From Flavobacterium sp. A45 (GTDB lineage: Bacteria; Bacteroidota; Bacteroidia; Flavobacteriales; Flavobacteriaceae): DNA of 64,000 bases. The translations under genes and the position numbers were made by a program. This document shows positions 32,226 through 52,947 of the stretch, piece after piece. The notes below the pieces were generated by a model that did no database searches, was not told the DNA's origin, and saw nothing but the letters and a program-made list of their open reading frames with translations. Location: assembly GCF_002001005.1 (NCBI RefSeq), contig NZ_MUNX01000146.1:186001-250000 (forward strand). The letters are read 5' to 3'. Every line of letters begins with the position of its first letter. The first letter of the stretch is position 1.

Positions 32226-32233
32226 TTCAAAAT

Positions 32234-32330
32234 ATGAAATCGCCATTAAGAACAAGTTTGTTGCAAACAAACACCAATAAAAAAAGGCGATAACATATAT
32301 GACTTCTAATAAATATGGTTTACATATATG
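32234..32330 (+). repeat. Duplicated structured leader, copy 1 (before dCMP deaminase)
   Basis: This 97-bp segment is repeated at 32766-32890; 44 of the first 47 and about 34 of the last 40 bases agree. It contains a 7-bp hairpin (GTTTGTT, loop GCA, AACAAAC, at 32256-32272) enclosed by ATCGCC and GGCGAT. The 3' end is the start codon of the next gene. It also encodes two tiny open frames, MKSPLRTSLLQTNTNKKRR (32234-32293) and MTSNKYGLHI (32299-32331). Confidence 0.75.
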
Positions 32331-32331
32331 A
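32299..32331 (+). other. Ten-codon upstream open frame overlapping the dCMP deaminase start
   Basis: ATG at 32299 opens MTSNKYGLHI, and its TGA (32329-32331) overlaps the deaminase ATG (32328-32330) as ATGA, a layout typical of translational coupling. It could be a leader peptide or chance. In leader copy 2 the same frame stops after five codons (MTSNK). Confidence 0.35.
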
Positions 32332-32759
32332 ATAAAATTAAATTAAATAAATACGACAAAGCTTATCTTAGGATTGCTACAGAATGGGGTTTGTTGTCTT
32401 ATTGCCAAAGAAAAAAAGTAGGGGCCATTATTGTAAAAGACCGCATGATTATTTCAGACGGGTATAATGGAACTCCTTCAGGATTTGAAAACTGCTGTGA
32501 AGACGAAGAGGGTTTGACGCGTTGGGATGTTCTCCATGCCGAGGCAAATGCAATATTGAAAGTAGCCAGATCAACTCAATCCTGCGAAGGGGCGACGTTG
32601 TATATTACGCTTTCGCCTTGTAAGGAATGCAGTAAATTGATTCATCAATCGGGGATAAAAAGAGTGGTATACCACAATGGATACCGCGATGATTCCGGAA
32701 TACAATTTTTAATGAAGGCTGGTATAGAAGTAGAACATATTTCTGTTTTAGAAGATTAA
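32328..32759 (+). CDS. dCMP deaminase family protein
   Basis: The 143-residue zinc enzyme has the cytidine/deoxycytidylate deaminase motifs HAEANAIL (zinc His and catalytic Glu, near residue 68) and SPCKECSKLI (two zinc Cys). The N-terminal part YLRIATEWGLLSYCQRKKVGAIIV and DGYNGTPSGFENCCED are typical of dCMP deaminases (ComEB type), which turn dCMP into dUMP for thymidylate synthesis. The start ATG overlaps a tiny upstream frame. It lies between two copies of a duplicated leader. Confidence 0.88.
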   Translation: MNKIKLNKYDKAYLRIATEWGLLSYCQRKKVGAIIVKDRMIISDGYNGTPSGFENCCEDEEGLTRWDVLHAEANAILKVARSTQSCEGATLYITLSPCKECSKLIHQSGIKRVVYHNGYRDDSGIQFLMKAGIEVEHISVLED

Positions 32760-32765
32760 GGGAAA

Positions 32766-32890
32766 ATGAAATCGCCATTAAAAACAAATTTGTTGCAAAC
32801 AAATACCAATAAATAAAAAGCGACCCGATCGGTAGCGAACTGGCGAAGCATAACATATATGACCTCTAATAAATAACTTTTGCATATATG
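32766..32890 (+). repeat. Duplicated structured leader, copy 2 (before S41 protease)
   Basis: This is the second copy of the element at 32234-32330. The hairpin is kept, with both outer bases changed together (ATTTGTT, loop GCA, AACAAAT), so G-C became A-T. It encodes MKSPLKTNLLQTNTNK (32766-32816) and MTSNK (32859-32876). A 27-nt insert at 32824-32850 is absent from copy 1. The last 40 bases again end at the start codon of the downstream gene. Confidence 0.75.
32820..32850. repeat. Small dispersed repeat, copy B (insert in leader copy 2)
   Basis: The sequence opens GCGACCCGA and ends GCGAACTGGCGAAGCA, matching the blocks at 24227-24260 in order. It accounts for the insertion that distinguishes leader copy 2 from copy 1. 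Confidence 0.6.
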
Positions 32891-34483
32891 AAATTCGACA
32901 ACAAATATTTACCCATTCTTATTGGAGGCATTTTTGCCCTCGGAATATTTATTGGTAGTTTGTCTGGTACGCCTTCGTCTAAAGCTTTTTTGGCCAAAAA
33001 GAATACCAAGGAAAAACTCAACAAACTGATCGATTTTATAGACAATGAATATGTAGATGATGTCAATACAGATTCGATTGTGAGTCTTACGGTAAATAAT
33101 ATTTTAGCAAAACTGGACCCTCATTCAGTGTACATACCGCCAAGTGAGCAAGCTGAAATTGCGGAGACCATGAAGGGCGATTTTGTTGGGATAGGAGTAA
33201 ATTTTTACATGTATAATGATTCTTTAGCGATTATTAATCCAGTCAAAAATGGCCCTTCTGCAAAAGCGGGAATCAAAGCTGGAGATCGTATTTTGTATGC
33301 GAACAAAACCAAGTTATTTGGTCGGAAATTGCCTAACGACAGTTTGTTTGCCGCGCTAAAAGGTGAAGCTGGTTCTCAAATTGAATTGACGGTTTATAGA
33401 AAATCGGAGCGTAAAAAAATAAAAGTAACCATAAAGCGTGATGTTATCCCGTTGAAAAGTGTTGATGCAGCATTGCTTTTGGATAAAACTACGGGTTATA
33501 TCAAGATTAATCGCTTTGCCGAAACTACAGCTGATGAATTTAACAAAGCTTTAATTTCTTTAAAAAAGAAAGGCATGAAAACACTCGTGGTTGATGTTCG
33601 AGATAATGGCGGAGGTTATATGGAAAAGGCCATTGCTATCGCCGACGAGTTTTTGAAAGATAAAGAATTAATTGTCTTTACGAAAAGCAAAAAAGAATCT
33701 ACCGAAAAAACGTATGCCACAAAGCAGGGTAGTTTTGAAAGTGGAAAAGTATTTGTTTTGATTAATGAAAACAGCGCTTCGGCGAGTGAAATTTTGGCTG
33801 GAGCCATTCAAGATAATGATCGCGGTACTATTGTAGGGAGACGTTCTTTTGGTAAAGGTTTGGTGCAACGCGAAATGGATTTTAACGATGGTTCTGCTGT
33901 GCGATTAACTATAGCTCGATATTATACACCAACCGGAAGGTCAATCCAAAAGCCATATTCTCATGGTAATGAGGAATACTTTAAAGAATCGGATTCGCGT
34001 TTTTTGCATGGTGAACTGTATAAAAAAGACAGTATAAAAGTGGTTGATTCCCTTAAATATAAAACCAAAAAAGGTAAAATTGTTTACGGCGGAGGCGGAA
34101 TTGTACCCGATGTTTTTGTCCCTTTGGAAGCAGAACACGGTGCGGAAAATGTTTCTTATTTGCTGCAGTCAGGAATCGTAGGACATTTTGTTTTTGAACA
34201 ATTAGACAAAAATAGAAATGCATTTGCAAAATTGACTTTCGATCAGTTTAAAGTAAAAATCAATTCGACCGATTTGTATTTTAATGCTTTCCAAAAATAT
34301 CTTTCCCAAAACGGGTTGGAGGTTAATTTGGAGAAATATAAAACATTGGTAAAAAGATATGTAAATGCAGAATTTGCAAGACAGTTATATGGTGATAGTC
34401 ATTACTATGAAATGGTTTTGAAAGAAGATGCTATGATAAAAGTAGTTTTGAAGCAAAATTCAAAACCTCAAACTGCAAAGTAA
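32888..34483 (+). CDS. S41 family C-terminal processing peptidase
   Basis: The 531-residue protein has an N-terminal membrane anchor or signal (YLPILIGGIFALGIFIGSLSG). A PDZ domain follows (about 95-175, GDFVGIGVNFYM and GPSAKAGIKAGDRIL), then the S41 protease core: VVDVRDNGGGYMEKAIAIADEF, the serine motif NENSASASEILAGAIQD and the catalytic-Lys motif GRRSFGKGLVQ. A C-terminal helical extension (about 400-531) follows. Such Ctp proteases trim periplasmic or envelope proteins. It follows the dCMP deaminase gene and leader copy 2, whose -7-like AACTTTTG lies 7 nt before its ATG. Confidence 0.92.
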   Translation: MKFDNKYLPILIGGIFALGIFIGSLSGTPSSKAFLAKKNTKEKLNKLIDFIDNEYVDDVNTDSIVSLTVNNILAKLDPHSVYIPPSEQAEIAETMKGDFVGIGVNFYMYNDSLAIINPVKNGPSAKAGIKAGDRILYANKTKLFGRKLPNDSLFAALKGEAGSQIELTVYRKSERKKIKVTIKRDVIPLKSVDAALLLDKTTGYIKINRFAETTADEFNKALISLKKKGMKTLVVDVRDNGGGYMEKAIAIADEFLKDKELIVFTKSKKESTEKTYATKQGSFESGKVFVLINENSASASEILAGAIQDNDRGTIVGRRSFGKGLVQREMDFNDGSAVRLTIARYYTPTGRSIQKPYSHGNEEYFKESDSRFLHGELYKKDSIKVVDSLKYKTKKGKIVYGGGGIVPDVFVPLEAEHGAENVSYLLQSGIVGHFVFEQLDKNRNAFAKLTFDQFKVKINSTDLYFNAFQKYLSQNGLEVNLEKYKTLVKRYVNAEFARQLYGDSHYYEMVLKEDAMIKVVLKQNSKPQTAK

Positions 34484-41730: not shown

Positions 41731-41815
41731 TTAGGAGCTAATCCCGCTTTCCGTTTCAATCTTTTTATTTTTAAAGAAAAATAAAAAGGATTTCCACTGC
41801 AATCGGGGCTAAAAC
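41731..41815. repeat. Dispersed palindromic intergenic repeat, copy 1
   Basis: The element runs from TTAGGAGCTAATCCCG to GCAATCGGGGCTAA. Its centre is a perfect 12-bp stem (41761-41772 with 41777-41788) around AAAG, and its ends are complementary (AGC-CCCG with CGGG-GCT). An inverted, more diverged relative lies at 48863-48977. It looks like a non-coding genomic repeat (REP or MITE type). No gene is encoded. Confidence 0.6.
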
Positions 41816-52914: not shown

Positions 52915-52947
52915 ACCTTTGTCAAAGTTCAAAACTTTGACAAAGGT
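52915..52947. repeat. Perfect 15-bp intergenic palindrome
   Basis: ACCTTTGTCAAAGTT (52915-52929), loop CAA, and its exact complement (52933-52947) lie between ssb and mutY. Neither side has a T-tract, so it is unlikely to be a terminator. It has the look of a REP-type repeat. The 217-nt gap has no gene. Confidence 0.6.

Follow-up and report, generated by a model that had tools for sequence, protein, structure and literature searches.

Here, we analysed a duplicated, structured leader, hereafter called the element, that precedes two adjacent genes of Flavobacterium sp. A45 in a 64,000-nucleotide stretch of DNA (assembly GCF_002001005.1, contig NZ_MUNX01000146.1, positions 186,001 to 250,000 of the forward strand), which is referred to as the window. 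Copy 1 (32234..32330) runs from an ATG at its own 5' end to the ATG of a dCMP deaminase gene (32328..32759; Pfam dCMP_cyt_deam_1, PF00383, 5.2e-24) and copy 2 (32766..32890) from its own 5' ATG to that of an S41 protease gene (32888..34483; Peptidase_S41, PF03572, 6.7e-54), all on the plus strand. The original prediction for this locus, made from the letters alone, described homologous segments ending at start codons, and this description holds: two direct-repeat blocks connect the copies, one of 55 nt with 91% identity (32231-32285 and 32763-32817) and one of 43 nt with 88% identity (32290-32332 and 32850-32892), and each copy terminates in the ATG of the next gene. The predicted RNA fold of copy 1 (z -3.5) consists of an outer stem ATCGCC/GGCGAT (32239..32244 and 32286..32291), an inner hairpin GTTTGTT-GCA-AACAAAC (32256..32272) and a third stem CATATATG/CATATATG (32294..32301 and 32323..32330), which had been overlooked and carries the dCMP deaminase start codon inside its 3' arm; all three stems are also backed by covariation. 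Copy 2 is predicted to fold differently (z -2.5), with the third stem unchanged (5' arm CATATATG at 32854..32861, 3' arm with the S41 protease start codon at 32883..32890). Its inner hairpin reads ATTTGTT-GCA-AACAAAT (32788..32804), so the reported exchange of the closing pair from G-C to A-T is real, and the minimum-energy fold picks another hairpin. The outer-stem 5' arm ATCGCC is present (32771..32776); its usual 3' arm has given way to an inserted segment of about 33 nt (about 32817..32849), likewise overlooked, in which GGCGA at 32842-32846 could pair with TCGCC. Similar inserts occur at loci L228 and L238.

The origin of the leaders was addressed by comparison of filled and empty sites. 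Among 81 genomes with the dCMP deaminase gene, we inspected the 30 best-matching orthologous loci. The dCMP deaminase site is filled in the window's own genome alone and empty in the other 29 loci, and the S41 site is filled in two of the same 30, namely in the own genome and in its closest relative, G030. At the dCMP deaminase site, G030 has GATAATTCAATATATGAACAAAG where the own genome has GATAATTCAAAATATGAAATCGCC...TTTACATATATGAATAAAATT; this pair of empty and filled sequences places the element at the start codon, with ATGAA on both of its ends. Among the 28 loci without both copies, 21 have an ATGAA start that abuts or overlaps the dCMP deaminase stop codon, a position taken by the element in the own genome, and in the other seven the following start is located elsewhere or differs from ATGAA. 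Since the S41 copy is also found in G030, while the dCMP deaminase copy is absent there and from the other 28 loci, the two copies are separate insertions. A third case was found at a PPK2 gene (PF03976), where two of 30 loci are filled and the flanks match. In G178, another Flavobacterium, a dCMP deaminase gene (protein 73% identical) carries tandem copies (L300), apparently an independent insertion into the same gene. We consider it very probable that each leader represents a copy of a small mobile, non-autonomous element of the Flavobacteriaceae that inserts at start codons and brings along a fold and a new start site of its own.

The distribution of the element was surveyed with a covariance model trained on 80 copies, of which copy 1 was one and copy 2 was not. 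A model from the two window copies and a search of Flavobacteriaceae genomes had been proposed in the original prediction, and the search returned matches across the genus and in ten other genera. In the window, the model matches copies 1 and 2 with E=2.8e-17 and 2.8e-9, and apart from these two, one match with E=3.1 is all that was obtained up to E=10. The own genome holds nine matches at E<0.001, spread over seven contigs, and a weaker one (C106:21658, E=0.66). Under strict filters, which scored 20 candidates in each genome, a match was obtained in 119 of 199 genomes from the genus, the own genome included; with 150 candidates scored per genome, 69 matches were counted in G178, 32 in G188 and 22 in G079. 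At the family level, matches occur in 12 of 249 genomes, ten of which represent ten other genera. A scan of named genomes returned at least 116 stretches; by title, 80 of these comprise 72 with a Flavobacterium or Flavobacteriia-level label, two uncultured Bacteroidetes and six others. The commonest form of the element is about 95 nt long (about 95-130 nt for the window copies), and tandem units overlap by a common ATGAAA (L065, L093, L113). The Pfam families of six host genes in the own genome are unrelated (deaminase, S41 protease, outer membrane efflux protein, GH127, DUF4838 and PD40). Of the proposed structured leader common to two unrelated genes, the structure is confirmed and extended, while the shared leader is replaced by a dispersed mobile element. 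Spread by phages or plasmids was also considered and rejected: one consensus gave zero matches in phages and plasmids at E<=1e-5 and one exact pattern gave zero matches in viral contigs, two empty searches that leave room for more diverged copies.

How strictly is the element bound to gene starts? In a set of 143 copies, distinct by flank and with at least 600 nt downstream, the last ATG of the element opens an open reading frame (ORF) of at least 50 codons in 133 cases. The original prediction would have been contradicted by many unlinked copies without relation to starts; the copies indeed turned out to be many and unlinked, but most of them lie at starts. Element-free TATGAAA sites from 93 loci (n=337) served for comparison and comprise 57 gene starts, 220 coding, 40 intergenic and 20 ambiguous sites. 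The copies exceed this background both over all sites (133/143 versus 57/337, p=2.6e-89) and when intergenic sites only are admitted on a generous count (77/117, p=1.2e-14). From the 34 copies listed for G178, we set aside one truncated at the end of its contig as well as three that precede another copy; 25 of the 30 judged are found at starts, one being the start of a gene broken by a stop codon, and five elsewhere. Because of these five, the excess over intergenic sites is modest in this genome (p=0.03). Among 119 pattern matches, 97 open an ORF that has at least 60 codons or runs off the locus; the other 22 include chance matches in the DNA of other organisms (L048, L078, L091, L099), first tandem units, 59-codon ORFs and copies with no ORF. 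In other genera, 21 of 25 matches were inspected, and in 18 of them the last ATG opens an ORF of 100 codons or more. About 99% of copies have AAA after the gene's ATG, whereas 30% of 597 long-ORF starts read ATGAAA. Upstream of the element's first ATG, A occurs at -12/-11 in 68/68% of 91 copies and in 65/68% of 127 element-free control starts, and on account of this same A peak the first ATG is assigned as the host gene's former start codon. Immediately before the element, at -1, T occurs in 80% of copies versus 36% of control starts.

These counts bear on a rival scenario, in which a neutral repeat resembling miniature inverted-repeat transposable elements (MITEs) would enter any (T)ATGAA(A) site and the preference for starts would be mere survivorship, coding insertions being lost and start-carrying ones being kept. 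Copies off starts are expected in this scenario, and they exist (10/143 overall, 5/30 in G178); the G178 excess is weak, and a relative of about 260 bp in G016 is intergenic in the three copies inspected. Nevertheless, the excess of starts in the whole set persists against the generous intergenic expectation, and the right end of the element resembles most of a native initiation region, which a MITE with random targets would not need. Given the p-values of the whole set and of G178, targeting and survivorship can be separated only in part, and we regard the neutral scenario as a serious, though not the favoured, possibility.

The right end also tells what happens to the gene that is hit. In 188 copies, A is found at -13, -12, -11 and -6 relative to the gene's ATG in 97, 94, 89 and 95%, respectively. 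Bacteroidetes are reported to work without Shine-Dalgarno sequences, and in F. johnsoniae A is described as favourable at -3, -6, -12 and -13 and as overrepresented from -14 to -11 (PMC6847099). With A at -13, -12 and -6 but T at -3, the element hence provides a largely, but incompletely, favourable start site, and the hit gene can probably still be read. In 132 copies, the mean predicted unpaired probability of the start codon is 0.18 with the element versus 0.38 in the virtual empty site (lower in 80% of copies, p=1.3e-11), and the predicted openness of positions -20 to -9 is 0.78 versus 0.56.

The former start codon now opens a frame within the element. This frame stops short of the gene's ATG in 120 of 143 copies (by 11 nt in 40), overlaps it in 11 and continues in-frame into the gene in 12, so that an old start persisting upstream can mislead start annotation. 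One might therefore suspect that the encoded peptide, a 27-codon frame (MKSPLTTSLRKQTPINKKAIPYMTANK), is itself the selected feature and acts by attenuation or stalling: such a frame is present in many copies, and it or a similar one stops 11 nt ahead of the gene in the 40 copies and is open into the gene in the 12. Early stops contradict this, as the frame breaks off after four codons in several G178 copies (ATGAAATCGCCATAA) and after two at three loci of another genus (ATGAAATAG), and variants of the hairpin alter the peptide and preserve the pairing. We thus rejected a conserved leader peptide, the least credible of all explanations.

What is conserved instead of the peptide is the fold. 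Covariation was determined in an alignment of 116 matches from 99 loci of our choice, fitted to the model structure (A4); the preceding alignment of 80 copies (A3) had been selected with a pattern in which the outer and third stems are fixed, and their invariance there is uninformative. Across the 116 copies, 96.6% of cells are paired, and 11 of 20 pairs are changed on both sides, amounting to 91 such cells. None of 500 shuffles attains any of five covariation measures, and control structures slid along the alignment reach 18-55% paired cells and show two-sided changes in 2-8 pairs, but in only 2-10 cells. The compensated closing pair is hence part of strong covariation that extends to the wider alignment, and the proposal of a structure under selection is borne out. 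Compensated variants concern the outer stem (ATCACC/GGTGAT, ATCGCA/TGCGAT) and the third stem (CATATGTT/AACATATG, CATATGTG/CACATATG, CATATTTG/CAAATATG). In other genera, whole stems are replaced: ATGCCCA/TGGGCAT together with CATCTG/CAGATG in G382, ATCCCCAT/ATGGGGAT in G290, and ATAGCCAT/ATGGCTAT together with CATGTG/CACATG in G434. From this sequence evidence, the outer stem, inner hairpin and third stem can fold on the sense strand. The excess of G.T over A.C cells (47 versus 25, 13 of the latter in one column pair) leans towards folding of that strand; for the outer stem alone the order is reversed (A.C 17, G.T 12), because of that column pair.

A conserved fold around a start codon is also what would be expected of a cis-regulatory RNA leader, whose third stem sequesters the AUG, which defines a regulon and which is kept and spread for the benefit of the host genes. 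The strong covariation fits such a leader, and so do the reduced predicted accessibility of the start codon and the more open region from -20 to -9. In PPK2 orthologues (21 pairs among seven copies), moreover, the outer stem is constant (92-100% identity) while the inner loop diverges (13-64%), and two of these copies (L332, L338) carry an altered third-stem 5' arm. But, what would such a regulon have in common? The six hosts of the own genome share nothing evident, the presence of the element at a given gene is patchy among close relatives, and both the 69 matches in G178 and the tandem copies are at odds with a leader kept for its host. The loss of the outer-stem 3' arm from the S41 copy of G030 also weighs against selection by the host gene. 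Of the traits of Rfam cis-regulatory families, a covarying structure beside starts was found, and a coherent, vertically kept set of genes was not. We therefore consider regulation as the reason for the element's spread to be improbable. A riboswitch or other known RNA family was rejected as well, because the copies are without any Rfam match, in agreement with the original prediction, to which no known riboswitch class had seemed to apply: over the window, the sole Rfam match is Flavo-1, away from the leaders, and over six copy loci of the own genome, five matches below the gathering score were obtained at E up to 5, none on a copy of the element.

If the element is mobile, which enzyme moves it? 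Fixed orientation, direct ends, an identical junction sequence and conserved hairpins recall single-strand transposition by HUH (Y1) enzymes. One candidate explanation is therefore that the element is a repetitive extragenic palindromic (REP) element moved by a REP-associated tyrosine transposase (RAYT): it is palindromic, its orientation is fixed, no terminal inverted repeats were seen, and RAYT-like proteins are present in the own genome and in G178. The RAYT-like gene of the own genome (L400 1398-2338, contig C125) is, however, frameshifted and flanked by a palindrome other than that of the element (CTTTGTCAAAGTT..AACTTTGACAAAG), so that in this genome, where the surroundings were inspected, a RAYT gene flanked by the palindrome of the element was not found. 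G061, G195 and G331 have zero Y1 matches even at E<=10, and G188 (32 matches of the element) and G030 have weak ones alone, located in long ORFs. Over 199 genomes, Y1_Tnp and the element show no association (89 with both, 30 with the element only, 51 with Y1 only, 29 with neither; p=0.11) at a survey limit of 1e-4, below which divergent or weak RAYT-like proteins can slip. Mobilisation by a RAYT hence appears unlikely to us, if somewhat less so than the regulatory leader. A retroelement was rejected, RVT_1 being found in 9/16 element-bearing versus 3/6 element-free genomes and being absent from G000, G188, G012, G061, G112, G195 and G434, and so was a bridge RNA of the IS110 type, the recombinase occurring in 4/16 element-bearing and 0/6 element-free genomes. 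The mobiliser may have been lost or may be of a kind outside those tested. One CTTTGTCAAAGTT..AACTTTGACAAAG palindrome also lies inside the window (52917-52945).

Following this argumentation, we suggest how a mobile element that inserts at start codons might work. Filled and empty sites show insertion at (T)ATGAA(A), in practice almost invariably a gene's start codon, which is then entered in sense orientation. The old start codon thereafter opens a short frame within the element, and the right end, ...AAATTTTACATAT-ATGAA, hands the gene a new start site, which is evident in the sequence and whose use is predicted; according to the covariation, the third stem can pair CAU with the new AUG. 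As the lost start is replaced, an insertion might do almost no harm, and old copies might be retained because the start of the gene now lies within them. Mobility probably depends on the fold, which most likely serves as a hairpin of single-stranded DNA bound by a transposase acting in trans, similar to REP and insertion sequence IS200 systems. As a secondary effect, the fold may modulate how the host gene is translated.

Several observations weigh against this reading. Ten of the 143 copies open no ORF of 50 codons, and the excess over the intergenic expectation in G178 is modest. At -3, where A is favourable, 85% of the 188 copies have T (U). The slid control structures reach up to eight pairs changed on both sides, though in at most 10 cells. 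A mobilising enzyme was not found in the searches for Y1 transposase, RVT_1 and IS110. Finally, the constancy of the outer stem in PPK2 orthologues suggests that, in old copies, the host gene exerts a selection beyond mobility, unless separate insertions were compared.

Among known systems, the element resembles the Rickettsia palindromic elements (RPE), small palindromic mobile repeats (about 150 bp) described as entering genes in a manner that can be compatible with translation (PMC10969869, PMC2229807), but its site is the start codon, its peptide is unconserved and it provides a new start site; the term 'start codon' is absent from the main text of these two repeat reviews. The element further resembles MITEs (ERIC/RU-1, Correia and others) in being short, non-autonomous and dispersed. 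Of the traits of MITEs, it is multi-copy, non-coding and, as filled and empty sites demonstrate, mobile, but no terminal inverted repeats were seen, and it is inserted in sense at gene starts. By inspection of 80 aligned copies, its ends are direct and not inverted (ATGAAATCGCC... and ...CATATATGAAA). REP elements and miniature elements derived from IS200/IS605 are hairpins with fixed orientation and without terminal inverted repeats. The element shares these features with them, but has about 95 nt with three stems, shows no association with Y1 and coexists in its own genome with a RAYT-like gene that has other palindromes. Flavo-1 RNA (RF01705) is, like the element, a dispersed structured motif of the Flavobacteriaceae, but a separate Rfam family without match to the leaders; it is reported in sense or antisense of transcripts alike (PMC9723704). 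One Flavo-1 copy lies in the window at 41736-41814 on the minus strand (82.8 bits). No prior description of the element was found among the matches listed in the openly licensed literature, so an earlier report elsewhere is possible, and the matches listed for three short element strings look unrelated to it.

Beyond a single element, one could imagine a new class of mobile elements that seeks translation starts: an undescribed machinery would recognise the initiation region, perhaps on mRNA or on a transcription-coupled single strand, insert exactly there and rebuild the start in a switchable stem that sequesters the AUG. We put this forward as a speculative idea, with somewhat lower odds than the neutral scenario; if true, each insertion would bring another gene under one portable translational control. 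As a more general consequence, a start codon would serve as a safe harbour, an unusual survival route for a selfish sequence in a compact genome, and unrelated genes could gain a common structured leader and a short upstream frame in one step. For Bacteroidetes, the element would represent a portable initiation region that nature has put to the test many times, and ready-made pairs with and without it lend themselves to studies of initiation.

Variants and related repeats were found in addition to the typical copies. Five matches to the left end only contain no longer, autonomous version: L228 is the insert variant, L227 and L229 look like deletion derivatives, and L230 and L231 are of the G016 type. 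In G016, the model has 73 matches; the three copies inspected (L271, L279, L288) belong to the related intergenic repeat of about 260 bp, which is not located at starts and combines the same stem-loop module with a swapped outer stem (ACCAAC/GTTGGT), and all G016 matches were left out of the start-insertion counts. Six G178 copies (L298, L299, L308, L309, L311, L314) lack the first 10-15 nt or so, several of them in tandem, and have an exact right end. Such copies could result from recombination or 5' truncation, and the 5'-truncated L308 and L309 could hint at reverse transcription. The own genome also contains a second, shorter subfamily (L234, L235, L236) with the stem TCGCCAT/ATGGCGA, a different right half (CATATTCCTTTAAAAA...) and a terminal TATGAAA, whose ATG opens ORFs of 436 (L235), 243 (L236) and 18 codons (L234). 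At another locus of this genome (L002 1503-1525), a TetR-like frame, named by eye, lies upstream of the outer membrane efflux gene and now terminates within the element at the efflux start.
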